Shown here: positions 37,406 to 59,783 of the stretch, in pieces
Numbering within the stretch: the stretch's first letter is position 1
Layout of the letters: each line of letters begins with the position of its first letter
DNA from: Aquiluna sp.
Lineage (GTDB): Bacteria > Actinomycetota > Actinomycetes > Actinomycetales > Microbacteriaceae
NCBI GenBank assembly: GCA_028822985.1
Contig: JAPKCK010000002.1
Coordinates: 109,360-173,359, forward strand
Direction of reading: 5' to 3'
Length of the DNA: 64,000 bases
The notes under the pieces: model-generated
Database searches by the model: none
The model's input: the letters and a program-made list of their open reading frames with translations, nothing else
What the model was told of the DNA's origin: nothing
Translations under genes and position numbers: made by a program

Positions 37406-39097
37406 TTAGCCGCAGTATGCGCCCTCGGAAGCCGAGTGCACAAGCTTAGAAAATTTAGCTAGCACACCGCGGGTGTAGCGCGGTGGCAATGGCTGCCAGT
37501 CTTTACGACGATCAGCCAGCTCTTCTTCGCTGACGAGTAAATCAAGCGAACGAGCAGCGATATCGACTCGAATCAAGTCTCCATCGCGCACCAGAGCAAT
37601 TGGTCCACCGTCGGCGGTCTCTGGCGAGATGTGGCCGATACACAGTCCGGTTGTGCCGCCTGAGAATCTGCCGTCTGTCAATAATAGAACATCTTTACCC
37701 AATCCCGCACCCTTGATGGCGGCAGTGAAGGCAAGCATTTCACGCATGCCCGGGCCGCCCTTGGGTCCTTCGTAGCGAATCACCACCGCATCGCCAGACT
37801 TGATCTCGCCGTTATTTAGAGCCTCGATAGCGGTTCCTTCGCGATCGAAAACGCGTGCCGGACCCTCAAAGGTGGCCAACTCAAAACCTGCGGTCTTCAC
37901 GACCGCACCATCTGGTGCCATCGAGCCGTGCAGAACATTAATCCCACCGCGCTTGCTCATCGGGTTGTTCATGGCGCGGATGATTTTTCCATCTGGATCC
38001 GGTGGGGAAATTTCCGCTAAGTTTTCGGCCAAGGTCTTGCCGGTCACGGTCATGACATCTCCGTGCATAAGCCCAGCATCGAGAAGTGCCTTCATAAGCA
38101 CCGGAACGCCGCCAACGCGATCAACATCGTTCATCACGTATTGCCCGAACGGCTTTAGGTCGCCCAAGTGAGGAACCTTGTCAGCAATGCGGTTGAAGTC
38201 CGCAAGCTGAAGGTCAACTTCTGCCTCGCGAGCTATCGCTAGAAGGTGGAGGACAGCATTTGTCGAGCCACCGAACGCCATGAGAACCGCAATCGCATTC
38301 TCAAAAGCCGGCTTGGTCATAATCTGACGGGCTGTGATTCCCTTGTCTATCAAGTTCACTACCGCCTCGCCGGAACGGTGGGCCCAAATGTCTCGTCTGC
38401 GATCCGCAGATGGTGGAGCGGCCGATCCAGGAAGGCTCATACCGAGCGCCTCACCGATGGAGGCCATCGTGTTAGCTGTGTACATACCGCCGCAAGCGCC
38501 TTCTCCCGGGCAGATTGCGCGTTCGATCCGACCGAGGTCCTCCTCGCTCATTTTGCCGGCCTTGCAGGCACCAACGGCTTCGAAAGCATCGATGATTGTT
38601 ACCTGCTTCTCGGTGCCGTCGGTTAGCTTCACCCAACCTGGGGCGATTGTGCCGGCGTACAAAAATACAGAGGCAAGATCCAGTCTTGCGGCTGCCATTA
38701 GCATTCCGGGCAGCGACTTGTCACAGCCGGCAAGCAGCACTGAGCCGTCCATCCGTTCAGCCTGCATTACTGTCTCGACAGAGTCCGCAATTACCTCTCG
38801 GGACACGAGTGAAAAGTGCATGCCCTCGTGGCCCATCGAGATTCCGTCCGAAACTGAAATCGTTCCAAACTCCATAGGCCACCCGTTTGCCTGGCGAACG
38901 CCAACTTTGACGGCATCCGCAAGACGATCTAGAGACAAGTTGCATGGAGTCACTTCGTTCCAAGAGGAGGCAACGCCGATTTGAGGCTTAACCCAGTCGT
39001 CGTCACCCATACCGACGGCTCGGAGCATCCCGCGGGCAGGTGCACGCTCAATTCCATCGGTTACATCATGGCTTCTTGGCTTCATGTGATTGGTCAT
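37406..39097 (-). CDS. ilvD: dihydroxy-acid dehydratase
   Basis: [44 protein letters not shown]. Confidence 0.96.
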
Positions 39098-39100
39098 GCG

Positions 39101-39130
39101 TTAATCTTACTTTTTATATCGCGATACTCT
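39101..39130 (+). promoter_or_regulatory. putative promoter for crt operon (leaderless)
   Basis: TTAATC 39101-39106 and TACTCT 39125-39130, 18-bp spacer; -10 lies about 7 nt before the GTG start of crtB. Confidence 0.35.
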
Positions 39131-39136
39131 GGTCGT

Positions 39137-40030
39137 GTGGAAAATCTAGACACAACAAAGATCCCGACCGGTCTGGCGCTTTATAACCGAGCCGCGCACC
39201 GCGCCAGCAAAGAAGTGATCTACTCCTATTCGACCTCTTTCGGCATGGCTACCAGGGTCCTAAACAAAGGTTTACGCGACCACGTCGAGAACATTTACGC
39301 GCTGGTGCGGGTGGCCGACGAAATTGTTGATGGCTGTGCTGCTCAGGCTTCCGCGGAATCAGATGGTTTTGACCCGGGCGTGCTGCTAACTGAATTTGAA
39401 AACGAAACATACCTAGCGTTGACACGTGGCTTCAGCACAAACCTAGTCATTCATGCGTTTGCTCTCACCGCCAGAGAAGTTGGAATCAAGAAAGACATCA
39501 TTGAACCTTTCTTTTTCTCGATGAGGCAAGATTTGACCGAAACGATTCACGATCAAAAGTCCTTCCAGGTTTACGTATATGGCAGCGCCGAGGTTGTCGG
39601 CCTGATGTGTCTCGCGGCATTTGTCCATGGCAGGGATTACACCGAAGAGCAAAAACTTCTCTTGGTCAAAGGCGCTCGTGCTCTTGGGGCGGCCTTTCAA
39701 AAGGTGAACTTTCTTAGAGATCTTGCTGCCGACTTTGACAAGCTTGGGCGCAGCTATTTTCCGGATGTCGCCATAGAGACCTTCGACGAGGAGACAAAAA
39801 ACAGGCTGGTCCGAGATATCGAAAATGACTTGCAAATTTCAGCGCTGTCGCTGCCGCTGTTGGAGTCATCCGCAAGAAAAGCAGTGACGGCAGCTCAATT
39901 TTTGTTTCAGGAACTCAACAATAAAATATCTAAAACCCCCGCCGAGGAACTAATTCGGGCCCGTATCTCTGTTAACAACTTACGGAAGCTATTCGTGCTT
40001 GCCAAAGCCCTATTAGGAGTAAAGCCTTGA
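39137..40030 (+). CDS. crtB: phytoene synthase
   Basis: YSYSTSFGMATRVL, LVRVADEIVDG, FQKVNFLRDLAADFDKLGRSYFP; GTG 39137 likely start. Confidence 0.92.
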   Translation: MENLDTTKIPTGLALYNRAAHRASKEVIYSYSTSFGMATRVLNKGLRDHVENIYALVRVADEIVDGCAAQASAESDGFDPGVLLTEFENETYLALTRGFSTNLVIHAFALTAREVGIKKDIIEPFFFSMRQDLTETIHDQKSFQVYVYGSAEVVGLMCLAAFVHGRDYTEEQKLLLVKGARALGAAFQKVNFLRDLAADFDKLGRSYFPDVAIETFDEETKNRLVRDIENDLQISALSLPLLESSARKAVTAAQFLFQELNNKISKTPAEELIRARISVNNLRKLFVLAKALLGVKP

Positions 40031-41604
40031 GTAATAAAACTGCCGTTGTCGTTGGTGGAGGAATCGCCGGTCTTGCAAGCGCAGCACTTCTAGCTAAGGC
40101 AGGGATGAAAGTTCAGCTTTTCGAAGCGAACGCCACCCTGGGTGGTCGAGCCGATGTCTGGGAGAAAGACGGCTTCCGCTTTGACATGGGGCCAAGCTGG
40201 TACCTGATGCCAGATGCCTTTGAGCAGTTCTTCAAGCTAATGGGCACCTCGGCCAAGGAGCAACTAGACCTAGTGAGACTAAACCCGGCCTACCAAACTC
40301 GAAACGAGGGCCTCGGCGATGCACTTTCGATGCCGGACAACGTCGAGGGCATAAAAGAGCTCTTTGAATCGATTGAAACTGGGGCAGGCGAAGGTCTACA
40401 GAGATATTTAGACAGCGCAGAGGATGCCTACGACCTGTCGATTAAGCACTTTTTGTATACAAACTTTCAAGATGCTAGAAGCTTCGTGCAGCCAGAGGTA
40501 ATTGCGAAACTTGGCCGATTCATGAAGCTACTACTAAAGCCGCTCTATTCATTTTCCGGGGAATACGTAAAAGATGATCGCCTCAAGAAAATGCTGAACT
40601 TTCCAGCCGTCTTTTTAGGTGCTTCCCCCTATGACACCCCGAGCATGTATCACCTAATGACACACGTCGACATGAACCAAGGCGTGTTTTACCCGCAGGG
40701 TGGCCTTCATAGCGTCATTGAGGCGATTGCAAGGCTTGCGAAGCAATACGGCGTTGAGATTCACACTAGTTCGCCGGTTACGAAGATCCTGACCGACGGC
40801 AATAAGGCAGTTGGTCTACAAGTCGGTTCCTCTGAATATTTAGCAGATGTCGTTGTCGCGAGCGCCGACCTGCATCATGTCGAGACTAAATTGCTTGAGA
40901 AAAAGCACCAAACTTATCCGCAAAAATTCTGGGACAAGAAAATCCCCGGGCCTTCGGCGATGCTTATCTACTTGGGAGTTAAAGGCAAAATAGACCAACT
41001 CGACCACCACACGCTGTTGTATACCAAGGACTGGAGCACTAATTTCTCAGAGGTGTTTAGAAAAGCTGATGGAAAGAGTCACGTGCCGTCACCGGCATCG
41101 CTTTACATCTGCAACCCCTCCAAGTCAGATGCATCAGTTGCCCCCGATGGGCACGAGAACCTTTTCGTGCTAGTACCCATTGCCCCGGACCCAGTTATTG
41201 GCCGAGGCGGCATTGAGCGAAGTGGTGATGATGATTTCGAGGCTGCTGCCGACAAGATAATTGATCAGATAGCAGAGTGGTGTGATATCCCTGACCTCCA
41301 TGACCGCATCGTGGTTAGGCGCACCATGGGGCCAGGCAACTTCGAGTCAGAACTAAACGCCTGGAGCGGTACCGCACTTGGTATGGCCCACACTTTGACC
41401 CAGAGCGCATTCTTTAGGCCAAAAAACTACTCCAAGAAGCTAAAGAACCTGTTCTACACCGGTCACAACACCATTCCAGGCATCGGTCTGCCGATGTGCC
41501 TTATTGGTGCTGAGTTGGTTTATAAGCACCTGACTAACGACCGCAGTTCTGGGCCAATTCAAAAAGAACTAACCGAGGTTCAAAGGTGGAAAGGCATTAG
41601 TTGA
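40027..41604 (+). CDS. crtI: phytoene desaturase
   Basis: VVVGGGIAGLASAALLAKAGMKVQLFEAN; TTGA overlap with crtB. Confidence 0.94.
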   Translation: MSNKTAVVVGGGIAGLASAALLAKAGMKVQLFEANATLGGRADVWEKDGFRFDMGPSWYLMPDAFEQFFKLMGTSAKEQLDLVRLNPAYQTRNEGLGDALSMPDNVEGIKELFESIETGAGEGLQRYLDSAEDAYDLSIKHFLYTNFQDARSFVQPEVIAKLGRFMKLLLKPLYSFSGEYVKDDRLKKMLNFPAVFLGASPYDTPSMYHLMTHVDMNQGVFYPQGGLHSVIEAIARLAKQYGVEIHTSSPVTKILTDGNKAVGLQVGSSEYLADVVVASADLHHVETKLLEKKHQTYPQKFWDKKIPGPSAMLIYLGVKGKIDQLDHHTLLYTKDWSTNFSEVFRKADGKSHVPSPASLYICNPSKSDASVAPDGHENLFVLVPIAPDPVIGRGGIERSGDDDFEAAADKIIDQIAEWCDIPDLHDRIVVRRTMGPGNFESELNAWSGTALGMAHTLTQSAFFRPKNYSKKLKNLFYTGHNTIPGIGLPMCLIGAELVYKHLTNDRSSGPIQKELTEVQRWKGIS

Positions 41605-41927
41605 TTGATGCCCTGACGCCCTTTGCTTACCTGGCCGCACTTGTTCTATCGATAATCGGACTTTACCTTCTTGACCGACGTCACAAGTTGGCATTCGCTA
41701 CATCCCCTAAGGCTGCGGCGCTCTCGATCGCAATTGCAGTTGCCCTGTTCTTGGTTTGGGATCTAGTCGGAATCGGTCTTGGGATATTTTTTCGCGGTGA
41801 CGCCCCTCATCTTTCTGGACTACTGCTTGCCCCAGAGCTACCGCTTGAGGAGCTCTTCTTCCTAATCTTGCTGAGCTATAACTCACTGCTTGTCTACTTA
41901 GGCTTTGCAAGGTGGCTGAAAAAATGA
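41601..41927 (+). CDS. lycopene cyclase domain protein, CrtYe/CrtYc-like half
   Basis: PELPLEELFFLILLSYN motif, about 3 TM. Confidence 0.85.
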   Translation: MIDALTPFAYLAALVLSIIGLYLLDRRHKLAFATSPKAAALSIAIAVALFLVWDLVGIGLGIFFRGDAPHLSGLLLAPELPLEELFFLILLSYNSLLVYLGFARWLKK

Positions 41928-42211
41928 CCTACCTTTTGCTGACCTTATCCGTCATGGCCCTTGTGGCGATCTACGCATTCTTGATGCGCCACTGGTTGGT
42001 TGCCAAACCTCTAGTGGGAACTGCTGCCGTAATGCTGACACTCACTGCTATTTTTGACAACGTGATAATTGGAACAGGTATCGTCGCCTATGACCTGGAG
42101 AAGATATCCGGCATCAAAATCGGCGTTGCTCCCATCGAAGACTTCGCATACGCAGTACTTGCGATCGTTCTAGTGCCATCGCTGTTCAATTTTTTCAGGA
42201 CTAAATTGTGA
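41912..42211 (+). CDS. lycopene cyclase domain protein, CrtYf/CrtYd-like half
   Basis: IGVAPIEDFAYAVLAIVLVPSLF motif. Confidence 0.85.
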   Translation: MAEKMTYLLLTLSVMALVAIYAFLMRHWLVAKPLVGTAAVMLTLTAIFDNVIIGTGIVAYDLEKISGIKIGVAPIEDFAYAVLAIVLVPSLFNFFRTKL

Positions 42212-43065
42212 AACTAGTTTCCAGGCTGGTGGTTTCTTCAAGGCCGATTTCCTGGATAAACACTGCCTTCCCGTTCGCAGTTGCGTATTTTCTTGGCACC
42301 GGAAATATCGATGTCACCCTAATTATTGGAGCTCTTTTCTTCCTCATCCCCTACAACCTATTGATGTACGGGGTCAACGATGTTTTCGACTATGAGTCTG
42401 ACCTCACAAACCCCAGGAAAGGTGGGCTAGAAGGAGCTCTTCTGGAGCCCAAATATCACGCAGCAACCCTCTGGATCTCAACCAGCCTTGCTGCACCGTT
42501 TGTGATTTATCTTCTTGTAGTCGGCAGCCTCTTTTCCGGGGCATTACTGCTTTTGGTTATTTTCTCGGTGGTGGCCTACTCGGCCAAGCACTTGCGCTTC
42601 AAAGAGATTCCGGTTCTAGACTCTTTCACCTCTGCCCTGCACTTTATCGGGCCGATGCTCTTTGGGCTTTCGCTCGCTGGGACAAGCCTCACGGGCGAAG
42701 TAGTGATGATGGTAACAATTGCATTCGTGCTCTGGGGCGTGGCCTCCCATGCTTTTGGCGCGGTGCAGGACATCAGGGCAGATAAAGACGCGAACATCGC
42801 GTCAATCGCCACTTTTTTTGGAGCTCGCCTGACGGTGAAGTTGGCTTTTGGCGCTTACCTGCTGGCCGCGCTGATGCTGCTGGGGCTTCCAGGTAGATTT
42901 CAGTTTGCGGCCCTGGCAGCACTCCCCTACTTATTTGTCACTGCAAGAGAGTTCGGAATCACAGATGAAACCTGTGAAACGGCCAACAGAGGCTGGAAAA
43001 GATTTATCTGGCTGAACTTTTTCGCCGGCGCGATTATCTCGTCGCTCTTGATTGGCCCCGGCTAA
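42208..43065 (+). CDS. crtEb: UbiA-family prenyltransferase, lycopene elongase-like
   Basis: YGVNDVFDYESDLTNPRKGG; operon position after half cyclases. Confidence 0.85.
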   Translation: MKLVSRLVVSSRPISWINTAFPFAVAYFLGTGNIDVTLIIGALFFLIPYNLLMYGVNDVFDYESDLTNPRKGGLEGALLEPKYHAATLWISTSLAAPFVIYLLVVGSLFSGALLLLVIFSVVAYSAKHLRFKEIPVLDSFTSALHFIGPMLFGLSLAGTSLTGEVVMMVTIAFVLWGVASHAFGAVQDIRADKDANIASIATFFGARLTVKLAFGAYLLAALMLLGLPGRFQFAALAALPYLFVTAREFGITDETCETANRGWKRFIWLNFFAGAIISSLLIGPG

Positions 43066-44688: not shown

Positions 44689-44734
44689 GCTTCGATTATG
44701 CCCTAGGTGTTGACTTCTCGGCTCACAGAAAAAC

Positions 44735-45334
44735 CTAAAAGCCAAACAGCAAGTACCCCGCTATGAAAAACATCACGACAGCAATTAGTGAATCGAGAAT
44801 CCGCCAGAACTTTAACGATGACGTAAAGGGCGCCAATAGCCTCGCGAAGTAGCCCAGGCCAAAGAACCACACAAAGCTTCCAATGCTCGCCCCCAACCAA
44901 AACCACCACCTGTCATTTACAAACTGATTGCCGATTGATCCGAGCAAAATAACGGTGTCTATGTAAACATGAGGATTCAAAAAAGTAAGCGCTGCTGCAG
45001 TCCCGATTGCCTTTGCCAAGTTCGATTTTGCTTGCCCACTTGCATCCAGAACGCTGGGACTAATGGCCCTTCGAATTGAACTGATTCCAAACCACACCAG
45101 ATAGGCAGCTCCACCAAAGCGCAGAACTACCAATAACCATGGGACGGATTCGATAACCGCCCCCAGGCCCAAGATGCCAGCCCCTATCAAAATCGCATCG
45201 GCAACTGCGCAGAAAAGGACAACGGCGAAAATATTTTGGCGCCTCAGGCCCTGTCTCAGAACGAAAGCATTCTGCGCTCCGATGGCAATAATCAAGGCCA
45301 AGCCGCTGGCAAAACCGGTAGTGATTGCTAGCAC
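44735..45334 (-). CDS. LysE/ArgO family amino acid exporter
   Basis: GLALIIAIGAQNAFVLRQGL. Confidence 0.9.
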   Translation of the reverse strand: MLAITTGFASGLALIIAIGAQNAFVLRQGLRRQNIFAVVLFCAVADAILIGAGILGLGAVIESVPWLLVVLRFGGAAYLVWFGISSIRRAISPSVLDASGQAKSNLAKAIGTAAALTFLNPHVYIDTVILLGSIGNQFVNDRWWFWLGASIGSFVWFFGLGYFARLLAPFTSSLKFWRILDSLIAVVMFFIAGYLLFGF

Positions 45335-45407
45335 GGGACCCTAACTGAGAATTCGACCTGACAGAAAATTGGAAATAAATCCTTATCAAAGCCTATTGAA
45401 AAATTAC

Positions 45408-45869
45408 ATGAATCTAGAAACCGGAACCGCGGCCCCAGAATTTACTCTTATCAATCAAGATGGTCAAAGCGTCTCTCTTTCTGACCACTTGGGTAAGAAC
45501 GTAATTGTCTATTTCTATCCGGCAGCCTCGACACCGGGATGCACAATTCAGGCCTGTGACTTTAGAGACAACATAAACTCACTCAAGGCAACCGGCTACG
45601 TGGTCCTTGGAGTCTCTCCTGACAAGCAGAGCAAGCTCAGAACATTTCAAGAGAAGCAGGACCTAAACTTCGACCTTCTTTCCGATGAGGATAGCTTCGT
45701 TCAAAAGGCCTATGGCGCCTATGGCGCGAAGCAAATGTACGGCAAGGAATATATGGGCACGATTCGCTCAACTTTTGTGGTTGACCCGGCTGGCAAAATC
45801 AGCCACGCTTTCTACAAGGTCAAAACAGCCGGCCATGTTGCATTCCTGAGGGAGCAGTTAGGCCTTTAG
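45408..45869 (+). CDS. bcp: peroxiredoxin (BCP/PrxQ), two-Cys form
   Basis: PAASTPGCTIQACDFRD; CxxxxC present. Confidence 0.9.
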   Translation: MNLETGTAAPEFTLINQDGQSVSLSDHLGKNVIVYFYPAASTPGCTIQACDFRDNINSLKATGYVVLGVSPDKQSKLRTFQEKQDLNFDLLSDEDSFVQKAYGAYGAKQMYGKEYMGTIRSTFVVDPAGKISHAFYKVKTAGHVAFLREQLGL

Positions 45870-46477
45870 CCACGAAGCGGAAGCAAAACCCCGATCGCAA
45901 TAAAAACGCCTCCGAAAACTCGGTTGAAATTCTTCCCCGCTCGAACCAAAAGCGGCTTGATTCGGTCCGCCAATGAGGCCACGGTGAATTCATAAGCGAA
46001 TTCGATCACGATAAAAGTCATGGCCATCAGCAAAAACTGTGTGAATAGCGATTCTCGCGGGTTCACAAACTGCGGCAGAAATGCAACGAAAAACAGGATG
46101 CCCTTTGGGTTGCTTACTGCTGAAATCAACCCTTGACAGAACAGCGTTCTAAACCTGCCATTGTCAGTGTTTTTGGACCGTGAAATATTGATCGGTTCGG
46201 ACCTGATCAGTTGAATACCCAGCCAGACCAAGTACGCTCCGCCGAGCCACTTCATTATTACTAACAGTCCTGCCCAAGTCGCCAGCAATGCCCCGATACC
46301 AAACATTGAAAGCCCGATAATTAAACCGAACCCTAGAGAGCCTCCAGCTATTGTCGCAAGAGTCTTTTTGGTTCCGTGCAAGGCGCCGTGAGTAAGGGCC
46401 AAAATCCCGTTTGGCCCTGGCGTTAGTGATAGTCCGATTGCCGCCAGTGCGAAGAGAGACCAGGTTTGCCACGTCAT
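45866..46477 (-). CDS. LysE/RhtB family translocator
   Basis: AAIGLSLTPGPNGILALTHG. Confidence 0.9.
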   Translation of the reverse strand: MTWQTWSLFALAAIGLSLTPGPNGILALTHGALHGTKKTLATIAGGSLGFGLIIGLSMFGIGALLATWAGLLVIMKWLGGAYLVWLGIQLIRSEPINISRSKNTDNGRFRTLFCQGLISAVSNPKGILFFVAFLPQFVNPRESLFTQFLLMAMTFIVIEFAYEFTVASLADRIKPLLVRAGKNFNRVFGGVFIAIGVLLPLRG

Positions 46478-46498: not shown

Positions 46499-47005
46499 CT
46501 AGCTAACTAACGCTTCATCTTTCTTGGACACAGAACTCTCAAACTTGTGGGTCTTCTTGGTGGATAGACCTGCAACAATCACCAGAGCTGAGCCAATGAT
46601 GACCAAGTTCTTCACAATGTACTGGCCCTCGAGAGTTAGACCAAAAGGAATAACCGTGAAGCAAACCTCGGGGAGAAGCACAAGTGGCAAGAAGGTGCCG
46701 GGCATCTGAAACGCAAGAAGCACTATGCCGGCTCGCGTTAGCGCAGGAACTAAGAAAGCAACTCCTATTGCAACTTCCCATAGACCCAGAAGCGGAACAA
46801 TAATTTCCGGTGTCAGCCAGTAAATGGTCGCAGCGACCAAGTCATAAGCCGGCGACAATTCGCCGATCATCTTTAGAGCACCGAACCAGATGAAGATGAT
46901 TCCGATGGCGTATCTGAGAAACGGAACGCCAATCTTGGTAGAAAACCGGATCATGTACCTGTCGAACTGACTTTCCATCTTTGTGACGAACTCTTTTATT
47001 ATCAC
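46499..47005 (-). CDS. DoxX/DUF417-like membrane protein
   Basis: RYAIGIIFIWFGALKMIGELSPA; LEGQYIVKNLVIIGSALV. Confidence 0.7.
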   Translation of the reverse strand: MIIKEFVTKMESQFDRYMIRFSTKIGVPFLRYAIGIIFIWFGALKMIGELSPAYDLVAATIYWLTPEIIVPLLGLWEVAIGVAFLVPALTRAGIVLLAFQMPGTFLPLVLLPEVCFTVIPFGLTLEGQYIVKNLVIIGSALVIVAGLSTKKTHKFESSVSKKDEALVS

Positions 47006-47212
47006 TTGGCTCCCTATAGACGCTCGAAATTACTACTTGATAACTGGATTTGAACTGCCAAGCGTCTTTGCCGGCAAGTTATAGAAACAACAACGTTGTG
47101 GCTATACCCATTCCCATGGTCACCAAAATGCCCCCGGTGGTGCTCCTAGACAAGAATCACTAAAAGTTGAGTGCTAAGGGCATTCAAACAGCAGGTGGGC
47201 ACATGCCCAAAC

Positions 47213-47980
47213 TCAGTTTTGAGCACCGAGCCTTACGGTTATTTGCGGCCAAGAATCTTGCAACAAGGGGGAAGTTAGATCACTCAGGCGAAGCTTTTGG
47301 TTGCCCGCCTCATCAAAATTATCCGACGCCAACCAGGTCTCAATCGCAGACCTAACCCGCGGCCACTCAGAGTCCAAAATTGAAAACCAGGCCGTGTCAC
47401 GACTGTGATCCTTGACAATCGTGGCTTGCCTAAACACCCCTTCGAAAGAGAAACCTAATCTCGCGGCCGCTCGAATGGACGGTGCGTTGAGCGCGTTGCA
47501 CTTCCATTCGAGGCGCCTATAACCAAGATCAAATGCATTTTTCATCATCAAGTACATGGCCTCGGTGGCTATGGGCTTTTTCTGCATCAAGGGCGAGAAA
47601 GTTAGCCAGCCAATCTCGATAGACGAGGCCCTTGGGTCAATCCGAAGGTGCGAGGAAATGCCGACTGCCTTGTTGGTCTGGTCATCGATGATTGCGTAAA
47701 AAACGGGGTCCTGCTGGCCTTGAACGCGCTGAACCCAAGCCAAAAATTCATCCACGGACCGAAAGGGGCCCTGAGGCAAGTAGGTCCAAAGCGAATCGGA
47801 TGCATCGAGGCTAAATGCCTCAAAGAGATCGATGGCGTGAGCCTCGGCCCTAAGTTGTTCTAACCTGCAAAGAGATCCGGAAATCACCAGGCCTCCGTCC
47901 GGAAGCTCGGGCTTGGCCGCCTGATCCACCTCGATACCAATTGGATCACCGTTTGCATTCGGTACTGAAATTATGAGCAC
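47213..47980 (-). CDS. GNAT family N-acetyltransferase (RimJ/RimL-like)
   Basis: RRLEWKCNALNAPSIRAAARLGFSFEGVFRQATIVK. Confidence 0.88.
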   Translation of the reverse strand: MLIISVPNANGDPIGIEVDQAAKPELPDGGLVISGSLCRLEQLRAEAHAIDLFEAFSLDASDSLWTYLPQGPFRSVDEFLAWVQRVQGQQDPVFYAIIDDQTNKAVGISSHLRIDPRASSIEIGWLTFSPLMQKKPIATEAMYLMMKNAFDLGYRRLEWKCNALNAPSIRAAARLGFSFEGVFRQATIVKDHSRDTAWFSILDSEWPRVRSAIETWLASDNFDEAGNQKLRLSDLTSPLLQDSWPQITVRLGAQN

Positions 47981-48060
47981 TAGCTAAGACTAAGGCTCAC
48001 GCTTCGACAGGGGTAGCGTCCGCTGCGACTTTCCTCTGCGCACTTAGTCTCAGATTCTGC

Positions 48061-50358
<2,298 letters not shown>

Positions 50359-50361
50359 TTA

Positions 50362-50409
50362 GTGATGCGCCCCGGACTTAAACCGGGAACTTACTCATTA
50401 GTCTCGTCA
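50362..50409 (-). pseudogene. degenerate tRNA-Lys 3' fragment (R1)
   Basis: gatgcgccccggacttaaaccgggaacttactcattag versus intact tRNA ggtgcgcccccccggacttgaaccgggaacccactgattaag. Confidence 0.75.
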
Positions 50410-50477
50410 TGCAAATGCCCCGCACATTCGCTAGGGGCGGGCTTGGGTTCTATGGTGCCAATGTAAACAAGACTTAA

Positions 50478-51680
50478 TTAGCTTTGACCTGTATTAGATC
50501 CAGCCAGAACCAACTCGCGCCGGCTTCTCAATAACGCCAAGCCCATGAGTAGTAGAAACGCAGTTATACCCATGCTCATCGTTGTCACGATGCCCGCAAT
50601 CGGATTCCGGAGCACTATCACCGTAAGTAACAGCGGACTGAAAGCAACCACAATTTTTGAAAACATCATTATGTATCCCTGACGTTCACCAAACTGCTCG
50701 GGCCCAAAAAACAGAAGCGGCAGTGTTCCCCTGATAAAGGGGTCAAGCCCAACAGCAATGCCCTGCAAAACTACGAACGGGACCAGCGCATCGACGCCGA
50801 AGACCACAACTAAAGCGACACCTAGCGGGTGCGAAAGCATTGCCAGGGCCGCAACGCGCATCGGGGTCATGACCCTGCCCAAGACAACCAGCAGCACTCT
50901 GGCCAACACCTGAGATGGCCCAAGGATTGCAGCCGCGAACAGCGCTACTCCCATAGAAGCACCAAGTTCAGTCAGCAAAAAGGGCAGTATCGTGTTGACG
51001 GAGGCAACCATGAAACCTTCTAGAGCAAACATCACCGCAAAAATAACGATCAGCAGGTCGATACGAATTCGCCTTTTGTAGCTAGTTGAAGTTGCAGGCG
51101 CGGGCTCTGCAACAGGTCTCGGACCGAGTCGAGGGATTGTTAGGTTTAGCGGCAGCGCAATAAGTAAGTGCGCAAAAGCCCAGACCATCACCGCCCATTG
51201 CCAACTAAAATTTTCGGTGACCCAAGCATTTAAGGGCCAGGAAATTGTTGAGGAGAGACCAACAAAAACAGTGATTCCGGCGATGATCTTGTTCGACTCA
51301 TCGCCAAAAAAAGTAACTACGGTTGCAAATGCAGCGTCATAGTTGCCCATCGCGGCTCCGATGCCAATGAGTACCCAGGCAGCAAAAAGCATCTGCACTG
51401 AGGTGCTTGCCGCCAGAGTGCTAAGACCCAGAATAAACGCGATGCTTCCGAAAGGGAGGACTCGCCTCCCCCCTAGCCGATCGATCGCCTTGCCAACGCG
51501 GGGACCCAAGAAGGCCGCTACCAAGAGGGCAACGGTGAAGGCCCAAAAAAAAGTTTCAGTGGCTATTCCAAGAGACTCTGATATCGGCACTGCCAGGATT
51601 GCCGGGAGGTAGAAACCCGAACTCCAGCCTATGAATTGAGAAATTCCAAGTCGGGCAGTCAATCGTGAGCTGGGTTTCAA
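50478..51680 (-). CDS. MFS transporter
   Basis: About 12 TM; GPRVGKAIDRLGGRRVLPFG motif A. Confidence 0.9.
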   Translation of the reverse strand: MKPSSRLTARLGISQFIGWSSGFYLPAILAVPISESLGIATETFFWAFTVALLVAAFLGPRVGKAIDRLGGRRVLPFGSIAFILGLSTLAASTSVQMLFAAWVLIGIGAAMGNYDAAFATVVTFFGDESNKIIAGITVFVGLSSTISWPLNAWVTENFSWQWAVMVWAFAHLLIALPLNLTIPRLGPRPVAEPAPATSTSYKRRIRIDLLIVIFAVMFALEGFMVASVNTILPFLLTELGASMGVALFAAAILGPSQVLARVLLVVLGRVMTPMRVAALAMLSHPLGVALVVVFGVDALVPFVVLQGIAVGLDPFIRGTLPLLFFGPEQFGERQGYIMMFSKIVVAFSPLLLTVIVLRNPIAGIVTTMSMGITAFLLLMGLALLRSRRELVLAGSNTGQS

Positions 51681-51978
51681 TTAGGTTCCAATTCTGTTCC
51701 GTCAGCACCCGCGCGTGGGCCGGGCTGAGTGCCCAATCGTGTTGTTATTGGTTGTTATTCACTAGCCTCTAAATCATAAGACAGAATGAAACAATCCCTT
51801 GGGCTTTATGAGGCACAGGAGGAATTCAGGGGCGCGGCGGCTCCGGACATCGGACTGGTGTCAAGTGTTGCGTCGTAGAGCATCAATTTTTTCCGTGTGG
51901 GTCTTATTTGCCGAACTGGAGTGAGTTCCGTGATCCATTGCAAACACCTTCTTTTGGTCCGTTACCGAATTTGTCGAA

Positions 51979-52194
51979 ATGAGAACCGTTAGGACAAGGG
52001 CAGAAAAAAACGGCAAGCCAATCAGCTTTAGCCGCGGCATAGTGAAACACTTCCAGCCTCTGGAGTTTTACAATTATGACTGGGAGCCCGAAAACGCTCC
52101 CCTGCTAATAAAGACACTTCTCATGGTTTTCACAGAGTTCAGCGCTCTCCCCAATTATAGTTTTGAGCAACACAGTCCTTATCGAGAGAAGTAA
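51979..52194 (+). CDS. possible 71-aa protein immediately upstream of heliorhodopsin
   Basis: ORF stop 5 nt before heliorhodopsin ATG; no family recognised. Confidence 0.3.
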   Translation: MRTVRTRAEKNGKPISFSRGIVKHFQPLEFYNYDWEPENAPLLIKTLLMVFTEFSALPNYSFEQHSPYREK

Positions 52195-52199
52195 AAACA

Positions 52200-52970
52200 A
52201 TGAAGCCGGAAACAAAACTTGGGAAACAGCTGCAAACATTCAACAGGTTTGCAGGTTTGTTTCACCTGATTCAAGCCATCGTGCTGTTCCTCATCTTGAA
52301 CAACGAGACCAAGATCCCGGTTATCACAAGGTTCTTTACCGATACCCCCGATGGCATCCGGCCAATGAGCGAGACCCTGTTCGAATTTCCAATTGCCTTG
52401 ATTGCTCCGATCTTCCTGTTGATTTCAGCAATCGCGCACCTGCTCATCTCTGCTCCGTTCTACATACGGCGCTATGAGCAAAACATTGCCAAGGGCATCA
52501 ATCCACCGCGCTGGTGGGAGTACTCAATCAGCTCCTCACTGATGTTGGTTGTGCTGCTGATGCTGGGCGGCCTAATAGAGATTTCAGCAATCGTGTTCAT
52601 CTTCACGCTGAACTTCATCATGAACCTGATGGGCCTGGTGATGGAAAAATACAACCAACTGACCGAAAAGGTGAGCTGGTTGCCATTCAACATCGGAGTT
52701 GTGGCGGGAATAGTTCCTTGGATTATGGGTGGGCTGTACTTCTGGGTATCCACCAACAACATTGCGGACGCCATCCCCGTCTATGCGCAGTTTGGTTTCC
52801 TTCTTACCTTTATCTTCTTCAACACCTTCGCCATCAACATGTTCTTGCAATACAAGAAGGTCGGAAAGTGGAAGGACTACCCGTATGGCGAAAAGGCCTA
52901 CATAGTTCTAAGCCTGGTATCAAAGTCAGTACTTGGTTGGGTAATCGTGCTCGGAACACTGGGGCTTTAG
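52200..52970 (+). CDS. heliorhodopsin
   Basis: NPPRWWEYSISSSLM (Glu107), FNIGVVAGIVPWI, YGEKAYIVLSLVSKSVLGW (candidate Schiff-base Lys242); 256 aa, 7 TM. Confidence 0.95.
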   Translation: MKPETKLGKQLQTFNRFAGLFHLIQAIVLFLILNNETKIPVITRFFTDTPDGIRPMSETLFEFPIALIAPIFLLISAIAHLLISAPFYIRRYEQNIAKGINPPRWWEYSISSSLMLVVLLMLGGLIEISAIVFIFTLNFIMNLMGLVMEKYNQLTEKVSWLPFNIGVVAGIVPWIMGGLYFWVSTNNIADAIPVYAQFGFLLTFIFFNTFAINMFLQYKKVGKWKDYPYGEKAYIVLSLVSKSVLGWVIVLGTLGL

Positions 52971-53027
52971 CTCGCAAGCTAAATCCAAGGCCTTCTTCAT
53001 TTCGCAGTATTTGATGAGCGAACTTGA

Positions 53028-53828
53028 TCAGCCGGTTGGCTCGGTTAGCATTCCGGGCCCAACCGGCTGCCTCAGCCACCTAAACAAAGCTCCTGCAGTG
53101 ACCAGAGCCAGCACGGGCAGGAGAATCTGAACCGCAAGGATTATGTCCGGGTATTGCTGATTCCATTCCGTTTCAGACATGTGGCGAGAGTAAATTCCCC
53201 AGAAGGCCCACACCAACACCAGAGAGTATCCTGGGGAGGAATTCACCAGTGCCGTGGCGGTGCCAATCAGAACTGCAACCACCAATATCACTACTGTCCA
53301 AGCTTGCGCTGATAAGCCAAAGCCTTCTTCGAAACCTAGCTGGACCAACAGCGAAGAAATGTTGGCGATGGTTGCAACAGTCGCCCAACCGAAGTAGATG
53401 GCGAACGGGAGCCTAACTGAGATGGTGCTGGCGAAGTCAGTGCGCTTCGCCGTTGTTAGCCGGTTAATTTTGTAAAGCGAGAACAGTAATAGCGCCAGAA
53501 TTAGAGTCGAGAGCCAGAGGAGCTCTAATCGCCAGGCAATGATCCAAAAGCCATTTAGTAAGTTGCCGAGAATAAACCAGGGTGTGACACCTCTGATAAC
53601 TGAAGTATTGGTTGCCAACTGAGTAAAGCTATAGACAGCTAGCCCGAGGTAGATCAGACCCCAGATTCCGAAAGTGAAATCTATTGGCGCAAACAAGGTG
53701 TCGTATTTTCTGGACACCTCGCCAACAGAAAGCCCTCCTAGCGGAAGGGCTGACGCAACAGCATTCATGACTAGCACGAACCCAAAGCTCGCTAGAGACA
53801 GAATGCGCTGCGGCATAAACGGGGCCAT
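53028..53828 (-). CDS. TspO/tryptophan-rich sensory-like membrane protein
   Basis: IDFTFGIWGLIYLGLAVYSFTQ, WRLELLWLSTLILALLL, LPFAIYFGWATVATIAN; ORF extends to 53963 but ATG 53828 more likely. Confidence 0.7.
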   Translation of the reverse strand: MAPFMPQRILSLASFGFVLVMNAVASALPLGGLSVGEVSRKYDTLFAPIDFTFGIWGLIYLGLAVYSFTQLATNTSVIRGVTPWFILGNLLNGFWIIAWRLELLWLSTLILALLLFSLYKINRLTTAKRTDFASTISVRLPFAIYFGWATVATIANISSLLVQLGFEEGFGLSAQAWTVVILVVAVLIGTATALVNSSPGYSLVLVWAFWGIYSRHMSETEWNQQYPDIILAVQILLPVLALVTAGALFRWLRQPVGPGMLTEPTG

Positions 53829-53983
53829 GCCCCTGAGTAAACCACAACTACGCTTTGTTATCCATCGCCTAAAAATCCCGCCGCGCGTCAAATTAGATGT
53901 TTTGGGTGAGAGCGATCTCATGTGGCTGAAAGTGTCGGAAGGCGAAAAACCGCTGTTATGCATGGGGTTTTCTATATTTTTCT

Positions 53984-54081
53984 TGATGCCCCCCCCCCGG
54001 ACTTGAACCGGGAACCCACTGATTAAGAGTCAGTATCTAAATGGGCTTAGAACCGCGTTAATTGGGCTTTAGGGGCATCAA
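53984..54081 (-). pseudogene. tRNA-Lys pseudogene (R2), 3' half intact, 5' half diverged
   Basis: 53992..54034 identical over 43 nt to 59027..59069; then aattgggctttaggggcatca resembles intact aattgagctagaggcgcatca. Confidence 0.85.
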
Positions 54082-54293
54082 TAGTCCCCATTCGTGCCCA
54101 AACCCTGTCGGGCAATAAGTAAATATGGCCGCTGGCAAACTCACGGATACGGACCAGCTCAGACTGATTAGCCGAAAAATTCAGATGCAGCTAAACGCTG
54201 GCCCACCAAATGCCCTGCACATCTGCGTTCTACAAAGCCGCACAGACTTGGGTTCTGTCTGAGGCTCTCCACGCGAGACCTTATCCTTGAGTC

Positions 54294-54971
54294 ATGTCAG
54301 TCTCGGAGCTCACCAACAGTACCCAGAATTATCTCAAGGCAATTTGGAGCCTCACCGAGTGGTCTACAAACTCGGTGACTGTTACCGAAATCTCCCGAAG
54401 GATGGGCCTAAGGCTCTCGTCGGTTTCGGATGCCATGCGCCGTCTTGGTCTAGCAGGATTTGTTGTCTACCACCCCTATGCCGCAATCGAACTGACAGAC
54501 CTAGGTAGACGGCACGCGTTAGCCATGGTGCGCAGGCACCGCCTAATTGAAACATTTCTTGTGGAGGTTCTGGATTACAGCTGGGACCAAGTCCACGACG
54601 AGGCAGAGAGCCTCGAGCACGCTGTCTCGGATTTCATGATTGACCAACTAGATAAAAAGTTGGGTTTTCCAAAAAGAGATCCGCACGGTGACCCAATACC
54701 CAGCGCCAATGGGGCCATCGAGATCCCAAACGCCGTAAAACTTAACCTAGTCCCCGCTCATGCTCAGGCCGTGGTTAGACGAATCTCAGATGCGAACCCA
54801 GAACTACTAAAATTCTTTGACGAACAGCAGATTGGCCTGGACACCCAGCTTGTGACTGTTGATCCCACTGAGAAGTCCGAGGGCATTCGCATCATGATTG
54901 CCGGATCTGACAACTCAACTACTCTCGGCCTCGAAGCCGCGGAAGCTCTTTACGTCGAGATTATTGAGTGA
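54294..54971 (+). CDS. DtxR/MntR family metalloregulator
   Basis: SVTVTEISRRMGLRLSSVSDAMRRLGLAGFVVY, LEVLDYSWDQVHDEAESLEHAVSD. Confidence 0.92.
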   Translation: MSVSELTNSTQNYLKAIWSLTEWSTNSVTVTEISRRMGLRLSSVSDAMRRLGLAGFVVYHPYAAIELTDLGRRHALAMVRRHRLIETFLVEVLDYSWDQVHDEAESLEHAVSDFMIDQLDKKLGFPKRDPHGDPIPSANGAIEIPNAVKLNLVPAHAQAVVRRISDANPELLKFFDEQQIGLDTQLVTVDPTEKSEGIRIMIAGSDNSTTLGLEAAEALYVEIIE

Positions 54972-54981
54972 GTAAAAAGAA

Positions 54982-55872
54982 CTAATTAATGCCTGCCCGT
55001 AGAGAGCGAGCCTGCTGCCTGGCATAAATAACTGCACTTATTCGCTTCCCGATGATGCCTTGCCGAGGACTAAATAGGTACACGAATGCGAACATAGCTC
55101 CCTGGGATAAAACCACCATACCGCCAGACGCCGTGTCGAGGTAATAGCTCAAATAAACCCCACCCACCGCCGCAATTGCTGCCATCACTGGGGCGATGAC
55201 CAACATCTTGGAAAAATTATCCGTTAATAAATATGCGGTTGCCCCCGGAATAATTAGCATTGCGACCACCAAGATGACTCCTACGGCTTGCAGTGCTACC
55301 ACTGAAGTGAGAGCTAATAATGCCAAAAGAACTGCGCCGATTAGCTTGGGATTCAATCCAATTGCTCGAGCGTGAATTGGATCAAAAGCGAACAACGTAA
55401 AGTCTTTGCGCTTGTAAATAAGCGCCCCGAGAGTAAAGGCCCCCAGAATAACAACCTGAGTAACATCTGCCCAAGACACACCTAACAAGTTTCCAAAAAC
55501 AATATGACCCAGGTCAGTTTGTGACGGGGTTACCGAGATCAAAACCAAGCCCAGAGCAAATAGGGTTGTAAAGACAATTCCGATGGCGGCATCCTCTTTT
55601 ACCCTGCTTGTGTCTCGCACAACACCGATCAAAATCACTGCCAGGAAGCCGAAAAATACAGCGCCAACAGCAAAAGGGAAATCAAGCACGTAGGCAATCA
55701 CAACACCCGGTAATACCGCATGCGAGACCGCATCGCCCATCAGAGACCATCCAATTAGAACTAGCCAAGTAGACAAGACGGCACCAACGATTGCGGCCAC
55801 CAAAGTGGTTATCAAAGCGCGAATCATAAAGTCATAGCTCAAGGGCTCAAGAATGAAGTCGATTGGGCTCAT
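54982..55872 (-). CDS. metal ABC transporter permease (MntB/SitC type)
   Basis: ABC-3 permease: GWSLMGDAVSHAVLPGVVIAY. Confidence 0.92.
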   Translation of the reverse strand: MSPIDFILEPLSYDFMIRALITTLVAAIVGAVLSTWLVLIGWSLMGDAVSHAVLPGVVIAYVLDFPFAVGAVFFGFLAVILIGVVRDTSRVKEDAAIGIVFTTLFALGLVLISVTPSQTDLGHIVFGNLLGVSWADVTQVVILGAFTLGALIYKRKDFTLFAFDPIHARAIGLNPKLIGAVLLALLALTSVVALQAVGVILVVAMLIIPGATAYLLTDNFSKMLVIAPVMAAIAAVGGVYLSYYLDTASGGMVVLSQGAMFAFVYLFSPRQGIIGKRISAVIYARQQARSLRAGIN

Positions 55873-56612
55873 GTGGCATCGCCCCTTCCCAAAACGTCAA
55901 TGCCAAAAGCCAGGGCTAGGTTGTTCGGCTGCAGTACTTTTTGCGTGGTGTCGTGCATGAGAACCCTGCGCATCAGGAGAATCGACTCATCGGCTAGCTG
56001 AGGCAAGGTAATGAGGTCGTGGGTTGAAACCAAAACGGTCACCCCTTGATTTGCCAGTTTTTTTATCAGTCGAATAATGGTTACTTCGGACTTTTTGTCC
56101 ACTCCGGCGAAAGGTTCGTCCAACAACAGAATCTTGGCTTCCTGAGCAATTGCCCTAGCTAAAAACGCTCGCTTGCGCTGACCGCCGGAAAGCTGGCCAA
56201 TCTGCCGATTAGAGTATTCGCTGAGCTCCACTCTCGCCAAAGCTTCCTCCACAGCAGCATGGTCTTGAGCACTGGCCCTTCTGGTTGGCCCCATCTTGCC
56301 GAAGCGACCCATTAGGACGACATCCCCAACTGATAATGGGAAGCTCCAATCGATCTCTTCACTCTGCGGCACATAGGCAATACTGCCCTTGCGTCGGGCC
56401 AGCACAGGGTCTTCGCCAAAAACCCTGATTTCACCCGAAGTCGCCTTAACCATGCCCATAATTGCCTTGAACAGGGTGGATTTGCCGGATCCGTTCATGC
56501 CCACGAGTCCCACGACTTTGCTCTCGGGAAGGTCAAGGCTGGCATCGATAAGGGCATCGACCTCTCCGTAAGAGACGGATAAATCTCTGATAGAAATAGC
56601 CGGGTTGATCAC
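55869..56612 (-). CDS. metal ABC transporter ATP-binding protein
   Basis: GMNGSGKST, LSGGQRKRAFLARAI, LLLDEPFAGVD. Confidence 0.94.
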   Translation of the reverse strand: MINPAISIRDLSVSYGEVDALIDASLDLPESKVVGLVGMNGSGKSTLFKAIMGMVKATSGEIRVFGEDPVLARRKGSIAYVPQSEEIDWSFPLSVGDVVLMGRFGKMGPTRRASAQDHAAVEEALARVELSEYSNRQIGQLSGGQRKRAFLARAIAQEAKILLLDEPFAGVDKKSEVTIIRLIKKLANQGVTVLVSTHDLITLPQLADESILLMRRVLMHDTTQKVLQPNNLALAFGIDVLGRGDAT

Positions 56613-57541
56613 TTAGAATCGCCCGTCAGCCCCTGCGCTATTTTCTCGGCGTTATAGCGAATCAAATCCAGATAGGTTGGAACCGGACCATCTGGGAGCG
56701 AAAGAGAATCCACATACAGCACACCACCAAATTTGGCGGTTGTAGCGCTCACCACTGCCTGCATAGCGTCGTCTGACACTGTGGACTCGCAGTAAACTGC
56801 AGTTACATTATTCTCAGAGACGTATTCGATAACTCCAGCCAGTTGTAGAGGTGTAGCTTGACTCTCGGCGTTCACAGGCCAGATGTAAACCTCCCGAAGA
56901 CCGGCATCTCGTGCCAAGTAAGAAAATGCACCCTCGCAAGTAACTAGGGCTCGCTGGGATTCGTCAAGAATTGAAAGTCTTTCCAAAAGCTCATCCTGCA
57001 CCTCTTGGAGTTGAGCTTTATAGACAGTTGCGTTTGCTCGAAAATATTCGGAATGCTCAGGTGCAAGGGCGCTGAATGCCCGGGCCATGTTGTCAACGTA
57101 AATCATCACGTTCAAAGGACTCATCCATGCGTGTGGGTTTGGAAAACCGGCATAGGAATCCTCGGTAATTTGCATCACCTCAACGCCCTCACTGACAACA
57201 ACGTGTGGCACGTCTAGATCTACCACGAACTTCCGAAACCACGCCTCGAGATTAAGGCCATTATCCAAAATAAGCACGGCATCTTGGGCGCGTCTCAGGT
57301 CCCCAGGAGTGGGTTCGTAGCCGTGAATTTCAGCGCCGACCTTAGTGATGGACTCTATTTGCAGCTTGTCCCCCGCCACATTCTCGGCTATGTCGGCCAA
57401 CACCGTGAAGGTCGTCAAGACCACTGGCAAATCATCGACTTCGGGTTCAGTGTTAGAGGTAGCAGCACAACCCGCCAACAAAATTGGCACTATGGACAGA
57501 AGGCCCACAATCTGGGATATTTTGCTAAATCCATGAATCAT
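56609..57541 (-). CDS. metal (Mn/Fe type) ABC transporter substrate-binding lipoprotein
   Basis: Lipobox LLAGC; IHGYEPTPGDL, NPHAWMSP; cluster A-I SBP. Confidence 0.92.
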   Translation of the reverse strand: MIHGFSKISQIVGLLSIVPILLAGCAATSNTEPEVDDLPVVLTTFTVLADIAENVAGDKLQIESITKVGAEIHGYEPTPGDLRRAQDAVLILDNGLNLEAWFRKFVVDLDVPHVVVSEGVEVMQITEDSYAGFPNPHAWMSPLNVMIYVDNMARAFSALAPEHSEYFRANATVYKAQLQEVQDELLERLSILDESQRALVTCEGAFSYLARDAGLREVYIWPVNAESQATPLQLAGVIEYVSENNVTAVYCESTVSDDAMQAVVSATTAKFGGVLYVDSLSLPDGPVPTYLDLIRYNAEKIAQGLTGDSK

Positions 57542-57624
57542 TTATCTCCTAGAAACTAACTTGTAGAACATGACTCTAGCAAATTGTTCGTCCAGACGTA
57601 GTTGATTGAGCTAAATCGACTGAA

Positions 57625-57660
57625 GGTCGGGAACACACTGATTAGGAGTTAGTTCTCTGT
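57625..57660 (-). pseudogene. degenerate tRNA-Lys fragment (R3)
   Basis: tcgggaacacactgattaggagttagttctctg versus intact ccgggaacccactgattaagagtcagttgctctg. Confidence 0.7.
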
Positions 57661-57837
57661 GCCCCTTGATTGCCAATAGATTGACGGGACTTGCTCTATG
57701 ACCAGCGCGGTCGAGCACGCTAGGTGTAGTTGGTGTTTAATCTGTTCTGGCAGTCAAGGCATAATTTTTTACCTAATTCAAAACACGCCCAGCGCGCGAG
57801 CTTGACCTTGAACTAATTCCTGGCGAACCGCACGATT

Positions 57838-58893
57838 CTAAGTACCCGGGAACTTAACTTCTGCGGACAGTGACCCACTTGGAAAAACATCTGAAATATC
57901 CGATTCTGCGGCCGGTCCAGTTAGGCTCTTCAACCAGGAATGATGTTCGAAGTAGAAGCCCTCTACGGTCATGCCAATGTTCTTCTCAAAAGCACCAGCG
58001 AAATCCATCTCGCGAAAGTCTCTGGGGATATCGACAAAAACAGACTGATACGAAGACAACGAAGCCAAATGAGCGACTGCTAGCCAAGGACTTGGGGAAC
58101 ACGAGGTTTCGGTATCATACCTTTCGCCTGTGTTTAGGTCGGGATCGCCGCAGGTTTTAAGGTACATATCCACATTCCAGCTGGTAAATAAGGGACTGAT
58201 GCGGTCCTCAACCCGAGGGGGGATGCCACCTTGGAAAACAGCAAATTTAGCCGCGTTTTCCTTCAGCCAAAGGAATGAGAACAGGTCTGCCGTGCCCTCT
58301 ACCCACCACGTTGGGGCCATCACGCTAGGTTCTTGCTGATAATCCAAATGTTTCTGTCCAGCCATGTTGTTCTGAAACCAGTGAAAATATTCGTGAGCAA
58401 TGCCCGTATAGACGTCAACCCGCGAGTCCGCGAGAGAAGTCTCCGACGGCTCTCTCCCTGTGTAAAAGTACCACTGCTCTTCATTCAGACAAATGCCAAA
58501 TTTATTGGGGGGATCGCCCACGGAACCTAGGCAATTTTGTTCAAGTGCGCCAGAGTGGCCCATCTCAACAAAAGGCTTCAAGGCTTCAAAAACTGATGAG
58601 GAATTTTCGGGCGTGGAAAATATCAGCGTCACGAATCCCGAATACCCGCCGACGAAAGAATTCAAGTTAGCCATCACCTGTCGGTACTCGGCTTCGTAGC
58701 TGGGGTCGATGTCGTCTGAGGCAACATAGGGCTGATAAGGGTTCTCCACCGGCACTCCAAATGACGGGTTGAGAGGTCCTGCTTCTTGACTTGCGCTCTG
58801 CGCGCACGAGGCGAGAATCAAGACGCTAGCCAAACACAGAGCAAGTGACCTCGTCGTTGGAATCAAGTTCATGAACCCGGGCCTAGTGGACAT
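57838..58893 (-). CDS. secreted lipoprotein with HExxH motif (putative metallopeptidase)
   Basis: Lipobox LILASC; YTGIAHEYFHWFQ; no precise family recognised. Confidence 0.7.
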   Translation of the reverse strand: MSTRPGFMNLIPTTRSLALCLASVLILASCAQSASQEAGPLNPSFGVPVENPYQPYVASDDIDPSYEAEYRQVMANLNSFVGGYSGFVTLIFSTPENSSSVFEALKPFVEMGHSGALEQNCLGSVGDPPNKFGICLNEEQWYFYTGREPSETSLADSRVDVYTGIAHEYFHWFQNNMAGQKHLDYQQEPSVMAPTWWVEGTADLFSFLWLKENAAKFAVFQGGIPPRVEDRISPLFTSWNVDMYLKTCGDPDLNTGERYDTETSCSPSPWLAVAHLASLSSYQSVFVDIPRDFREMDFAGAFEKNIGMTVEGFYFEHHSWLKSLTGPAAESDISDVFPSGSLSAEVKFPGT

Positions 58894-59019
58894 TAGAATC
58901 CCAATTTCTTGCACTCCACGTGCACTTACCCAGAATATCGGGGTGTGATTAGTTGCTACTAGCTAGGAGATGAGTTTAGGAGGAGCCCTCTAATTACGGG
59001 GGCAAAGTAGCTATTTAGT

Positions 59020-59095
<76 letters not shown>

Positions 59096-59189
59096 ATCAG
59101 CGCAAAAGCATACCACCAAGCGACTCAAGTTATCCAAGCGATTGATGAATAGTCGTCATCCAAATTTGGTGTGCCAAGATAACCAGGTG

Positions 59190-59783
59190 CCCATTGAACT
59201 TATTCTTGCGGTGGCTACCTTTGGCTTTGTAACCTCGGTAACCCCGGGGCCCAACAACACCATCTTGTTCACCACGGGAGTTAACTACGGCGTCAAAAAA
59301 GCCTTGCCGTTTTTATTCGGCATCATGCTCGGTCTGACCGTAATTCTCACAGCTATTGGTTTGGGACTTGGGGTTATTTTTGTCACTCTCCCAGGTGTTT
59401 ATGAAGTCCTCAAATATCTTGGCTTTGCATACATTCTTTTCCTGGGTTATTCAATTATTCGATCTGGCTACAAGCCCATCGACGGTGACAGCAAGCTGTT
59501 TGGCCTGTTCGAAGCGGCTTTTTTCCAATTTGTGAATCCAAAGGTTTGGGTTGTCATGCCTAGCTTTATGGCTTCGTTTATACCTATTGGCTCCTCACTG
59601 GGAGAAACAATTGGCCTGGTTTCTGTCTTTCTTGCGCTCACATTTCCAGGAGCGCTGGCCTGGGCGGTGTTTGGGGGTCTTCTGAAGAACTTCATGGCCG
59701 ATGCAAAAAAACGCCTGATCTTTAACTGGATAGCCGGACTGTTGCTGGTGGCCAGCATGGTCCCGGTTTTATTCATGGGCTAA
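59190..59783 (+). CDS. LysE family translocator
   Basis: FVTSVTPGPNNTILFTTGVNYG; likely GTG start 59190 (ORF from 59142). Confidence 0.88.
   Translation, partial: PIELILAVATFGFVTSVTPGPNNTILFTTGVNYGVKKALPFLFGIMLGLTVILTAIGLGLGVIFVTLPGVYEVLKYLGFAYILFLGYSIIRSGYKPIDGDSKLFGLFEAAFFQFVNPKVWVVMPSFMASFIPIGSSLGETIGLVSVFLALTFPGALAWAVFGGLLKNFMADAKKRLIFNWIAGLLLVASMVPVLFMG

Follow-up and report, generated by a model that had tools for sequence, protein, structure and literature searches.

The fold and the characteristic residues of heliorhodopsins (HeRs) are known, among them a long A-B loop hairpin peculiar to these proteins (PMC9385722) and the positions equivalent to Q148, Q213, and A240 of protein 48C12, which separate HeRs absorbing above 550 nm from those absorbing below 540 nm (PMC7807009). 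The function of HeRs is unsettled, and most arguments about it lean on neighbouring genes. Redox genes are enriched near HeRs (Bulzu et al.), and HeR regulation of partner proteins has been described in other species (PMC9529153, PMC11109279). For Aquiluna, two evolutionarily distinct HeR copies have been described, mostly from salt water, and HeR transcription has been reported in an estuary; the sections on rhodopsins in that study (West et al. 2025, PMC12422013) do not describe a tRNA-Lys island, the sharing of the copy studied here across orders, or colour-tuning residues.

This copy, termed HeR-B throughout, is encoded on a stretch of 64,000 nucleotides (the window) from the genome of an Aquiluna, a very small planktonic bacterium of the Luna-1 subcluster of actinobacteria (1.28 Mb, 98% complete). 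The same genome encodes a resident 48C12-type copy on contig C6, which we call HeR-A and which is 39% identical to HeR-B, and a type-1 rhodopsin with DTE and DxxxK motifs on contig C22. The general picture that we add is that HeR-B represents a separate, mobile subfamily, that paired controls provide evidence for its transfer, that it resides in an island at a tRNA-Lys gene without a conserved partner, and that its colour is predicted to differ from that of HeR-A; none of these points was found in the parts of the literature that we examined. The features of the locus are compiled in Table 1.

Table 1. Features of the window, in the order of their positions.
Feature	Positions	Strand	Remarks
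Carotenoid cluster	38981..43065	+	Phytoene synthase, CrtI-like amine oxidase, two lycopene cyclase halves, UbiA/CrtEb
Variable genomic island around HeR-B	46499..59019	.	Between core genes 43546-46477 and tRNA-Lys/peroxiredoxin/whiB/histidine kinase block
katG, catalase-peroxidase	48061..50301	-	Two genes from HeR-B
MFS transporter	50478..51680	-	ArsK-like profile, below cut-off; upstream of HeR-B, divergent, variable among relatives
Putative Shine-Dalgarno-like sequence GAGAGAAG	52184..52191	+	8 nt ahead of the HeR-B ATG; by direct sequence inspection
HeR-B, heliorhodopsin gene	52200..52970	+	ATG to TAG, 256 aa, reading frame intact; E107 (counterion), H22, H80, R104, S238, K242
T203 codon	52806..52808	+	E191 of V2HeR3, I199 of TaHeR
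M214 codon	52839..52841	+	Colour-tuning site, Q213 of 48C12
S241 codon	52920..52922	+	Next to retinal lysine; colour-tuning site, A240 of 48C12
K242 codon	52923..52925	+	Candidate retinal lysine, in TM7
Convergent membrane protein	53028..53963	-	311 aa, 58 bp from HeR-B
tRNA-Lys(CTT)	59020..59095	-	Right anchor of island; HeR-B on its 3′-end side

Among the described systems, Candidatus Aquiluna sp. IMCC13023 and its nearest relatives come closest, as they belong to the same genus, share the two-HeR state and encode HeR-B proteins with 96–98% identity. Protein 48C12 (6SU3) and actinobacterial HeR-A have the fold, the counterion E107, the His pair, and the SxxxK motif in common with HeR-B but are only about 39% identical, fall into a separate clade and carry Q148/Q213/A240 in place of M/M/S. 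The closest solved structure is that of TaHeR (6IS6; 42% identity, TM score 0.89), which has Ala and Ile where HeR-B has S241 and T203; the archaeal HeRs sampled resemble HeR-B in having Met at both tuning Gln sites. The viral, proton-transporting V2HeR3 shares family and counterion with HeR-B, which, however, lacks its residues E191 and W195.

An earlier note on this DNA, made from the letters alone, had taken the gene for a heliorhodopsin, and this is borne out by family profiles, fold, and signature residues. HeR-B matches the Pfam model Heliorhodopsin (PF18761) significantly and over its full length (model positions 1–242 of 242, E = 2.2e-87, 292.8 bits at a cut-off of 26.7), reaches 307.8 bits with the NCBIfam equivalog “HeR” (NF038020, cut-off 100), and retrieves TaHeR (6is6, E = 8.5e-61) and 48C12 (E about 5e-52) from the sequences in the PDB. 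The motif RWWEYSISSSLM, E107, H22, H80, and the segment SLVSKSVLGW with the candidate retinal lysine K242 are all found at the places given in the note. The AlphaFold2 model, calculated with 46 homologues (mean pLDDT 92), comprises seven TM helices and the A-B loop beta hairpin at residues 38–64 (strands 38–49 and 52–64), and places K242 inside the helix formed by residues 227–253, i.e., in TM7. It superposes on TaHeR, its best match in a Foldseek search (6is6, TM 0.89/0.91, rmsd 1.5 Å); ten heliorhodopsin chains rank on top (TM 0.85–0.89, query length) and type-1 rhodopsins follow far lower. HeR-B is a genuine heliorhodopsin (type-3 rhodopsin). A type-1 pump, already discounted in the note, was rejected, as the DTE motif is missing, PF01036 does not match, and the sole PF01036 match of the genome is another gene. 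A simple orthologue of 48C12 was likewise rejected, HeR-B being the second HeR copy of its genome and a member of another clade.

The single glutamate counterion in TM3 (ESL-type motif) is E107, the His pair consists of H22 and H80, and the SxxxK motif in TM7 is formed by S238 and K242; the HeR core residues are retained in all HeR-B copies. The B-C and E-F loops are basic and, together with homology, imply that the N terminus would be cytoplasmic (inverted topology). When 30 HeR-B proteins were compared with 87 other HeRs, 18 residues emerged as nearly diagnostic for the clade, T203 being one of them.

At the tuning positions, HeR-B has M148/M214/S241, the code of short-wavelength HeRs, and HeR-A has Q/Q/A. 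Ser at position 241 occurs in 25 of 30 HeR-B proteins (Ala in the other five) versus one of 87 other HeRs, and a Ser beside the retinal lysine is also present in the bluest HeR measured, that of Thermococcus (530 nm, PMC7807009). Because the tuning positions read M/M/S and not Q/Q/A, an absorption of HeR-B at about 530–540 nm appears more likely than the value near 550 nm given in the note. By extrapolation from measurements on 13 proteins and from mutations of a few sites in two of these, the protein is predicted to be about 10–20 nm bluer than HeR-A; published swaps at the tuning sites shifted the maximum by 5–12 nm (PMC7807009).

HeR-A is present in 21 of 23 Aquiluna genomes and HeR-B in nine; in a sample of the class, full-length HeR-B-like matches were obtained for three of 395 genomes. 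Relatives of HeR-B at 79–98% identity are encoded by Aquiluna genomes and by MAGs carrying the label Pontimonas, Micrococcales, or Nanopelagicales. One HeR from a Saccharibacterium reaches 65%, and all remaining HeRs stay below 50%. In the phylogenetic tree, HeR-B proteins from Aquiluna, Nanopelagicales, other Microbacteriaceae, and the one Saccharibacterium form a single clade with a long stem (support 100/100), apart from the 48C12-type clade with HeR-A; within it, Aquiluna is paraphyletic at modest support. The strongest evidence for transfer comes from a paired control, in which the three proteins were compared in the same genomes. Within Aquiluna, they diverge similarly (HeR-B 84–90%, HeR-A 76–91%, and SecA 80–86% identity). 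Across orders, HeR-B retains 79–86% identity to the window protein, whereas HeR-A drops to 48–58% and SecA to 56–64%. As HeR-B is thus far closer across orders than HeR-A or SecA, the comparison identifies it as a gene that was horizontally transferred between lineages. The synonymous sites of HeR-B are saturated between orders; the transfer must therefore be old, not recent, and its direction is uncertain. A dN/dS ratio of 0.04–0.08 indicates that HeR-B is under strong purifying selection.

Carriage of HeR-B by phages was rejected, with none present in viral contigs or phages, and so was carriage by plasmids, where two distant HeRs with 42% identity were the only ones found. Two HeRs are present in 15 of 20 genomes; as evidence for a pairing of HeR-A and HeR-B, this shows no enrichment, because HeR-A is present in 21 of the 23 Aquiluna genomes anyway. 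In some Nanopelagicales-like MAGs (L054 and L055; G131:C14 and G132:C9), no more than about 9 kb separates HeR-A from HeR-B on a single contig. A Saccharibacteria MAG (L059 and L091, same assembly) encodes two heliorhodopsins, one of them the HeR-B-like protein with 65% identity, and this suggests exchange with actinobacterial hosts.

In Aquiluna, the island containing HeR-B is bordered on the left by a conserved block with an aminotransferase, LysE-type exporters, and a peroxiredoxin, and on the right by a conserved block starting with tRNA-Lys(CTT), followed by a peroxiredoxin, whiB, and a histidine kinase. HeR-B abuts tRNA-Lys(CTT) in four relatives. Those lacking HeR-B have a short segment or one with different content, and in one of them, the Aquiluna genome G002, a tyrosine recombinase gene (L118, 4125-5264) immediately adjoins the 3′ end of this tRNA gene. 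The site thus has the usual appearance of an integration hot spot. Since no direct repeat of the tRNA 3′ end (att repeat) turned up within the window, integration of HeR-B is deduced from its position. In other orders, HeR-B occupies unrelated chromosomal sites. A peroxiredoxin (45369-45869 and 59871-60347) and a LysE-type exporter (45866-46477 and 59142-59783) are encoded on both sides of the island; these pairs are possibly old paralogues.

The local gene context, which the earlier note considered important, turned out to be a weak lead. HeR-B is a single-gene unit, alone on its strand, with the MFS transporter gene diverging from it upstream and the gene for the membrane protein converging on it downstream. 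A same-strand operon partner from the groups of GS, photolyase, or ABC transporters was not found, and both flanking genes point the opposite way. The neighbours vary among Aquiluna species and none is common to the other orders with HeR-B; therefore, we do not assign a partner from local context. A 5′ region travelling with the gene was not apparent, the upstream sequences of different orders failing to align; scans for promoters and terminators performed no better than on shuffled sequences, and a search against Rfam retrieved only the tRNA. The 311-aa membrane protein has no sequence match in Pfam, NCBIfam, or the PDB; by eye it resembles tryptophan-rich TspO-like sensors, and no search confirmed this. 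In four Aquiluna genomes, HeR-A, for its part, is located just behind a co-oriented gene for an MMPL-family transporter (L122, 8765-11338, G000:C6); this transporter, a possible operon partner of HeR-A, is not found there in the other members of the genus, as far as the compared stretches extend.

We consider it likely that HeR-B functions as a non-pumping heliorhodopsin photoreceptor, was horizontally acquired as a stand-alone gene and has a partner encoded elsewhere. An old vertical paralogue that evolves very slowly would explain the close similarity between orders without any transfer, and low dN/dS as well as saturated synonymous sites are compatible with it. Such a history is nevertheless quite improbable: within Aquiluna, HeR-B diverges about as much as SecA and HeR-A and yet is far closer to its counterparts across orders, its presence is patchy both in the genus and in the class sample, and it is found at unrelated chromosomal sites. 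The accessory distribution and the variable island would also be expected for passive, redundant cargo without a selected function, a notion that is hardly credible and that the purifying selection largely refutes, given an intact frame, the low dN/dS over a long divergence, and functional residues kept in every copy.

Two further explanations concern what the protein does. Coupling to its neighbours would make HeR-B a switch for oxidative stress that depends on light and works together with katG, with manganese uptake (MntR/ABC), or with the 311-aa membrane protein. The immediate divergent neighbour of HeR-B is katG in two close relatives only (L033 and L035), and a Mn/Zn-type ABC system together with a DtxR/MntR-like regulator is encoded within the same island; the proximity of these oxidative-stress genes is suggestive and in line with the enrichment reported by Bulzu et al. 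We still regard the coupling as unlikely, as katG is near HeR-B in only three and the membrane protein beside it (78–91% identical) in only five of nine Aquiluna HeR-B loci, neither is found at any non-Aquiluna HeR-B locus, and none of these genes adjoins HeR-B on the same strand. It is very unlikely that HeR-B transports protons or ions in the light as V2HeR3 does. What speaks for transport is a polar Thr specific to the clade (T203 in 30 of 30 HeR-B and none of 87 other HeRs) at the gate position that holds Glu in transporting viral HeRs. However, both hallmarks of V2HeR3, E191 and W195, are replaced in HeR-B, by T203 and F207, and transport is therefore unlikely; furthermore, the helices contain only three acidic residues (E107, E149, and E231), and the extracellular half is no richer in polar residues than that of other HeRs. 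A wider fenestration or pore lined by small residues in TM5–TM7 was also rejected: summed side-chain volumes revealed neither a net loss nor a net cavity, because larger residues elsewhere compensate.

The preferred reading assigns to HeR-B most likely the role of a non-pumping green-light (about 530–540 nm) sensor that acts on a partner encoded elsewhere. Retinal provided by the carotenoid and Blh enzymes of the cell would bind to K242 and be isomerized by green light; a slow photocycle would then alter the cytoplasmic face, whose B-C and E-F loops carry positive charges like those of AbHeR and OcHeR, and this change would modulate the partner. HeR-B moves alone between orders and is strongly selected beside a resident HeR, and it follows that the partner should be common to all hosts or that none is needed in cis. 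Having a second, laterally acquired copy is a more informative fact than the family identity. HeR-A and HeR-B would equip the cell with two green-light sensors of different colour in addition to a proton pump. A more far-reaching idea, which we consider doubtful, is that HeR-B (about 530 nm) is a mobile second HeR subfamily that forms a two-colour green-light pair with HeR-A (about 550 nm) in planktonic actinobacteria, perhaps through mixed dimers or a shared core partner, and that the clade-specific gate residue Thr203 changes its photocycle. Both HeRs belong to one cell and their predicted colours differ by about 10–20 nm, so that they can be compared cleanly in the same background, and the two-colour hypothesis is directly testable; an isolate of the genus exists (IMCC13023), and genome editing has been reported in related freshwater actinobacteria (PMC11577799).

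As regards the chromophore, the carotenoid cluster, which would supply the precursor for retinal, lies 9–13 kb from HeR-B, outside the island, and belongs to the conserved core. A blh gene is present on contig C18. With blh and the carotenoid cluster in its genome, the host can probably make its own retinal and in this respect differs from most of the Luna-1 genomes covered by West et al. 2025 (PMC12422013). Four of nine genomes with HeR-B and two of 14 without it contain blh, numbers too small for a claim of linkage. The blh gene (L123, 8123-9810, G000:C18) adjoins another pair of lycopene cyclase halves, which is not the one in the carotenoid cluster of the window; G008 and G003 have their blh near the aminotransferase block instead.
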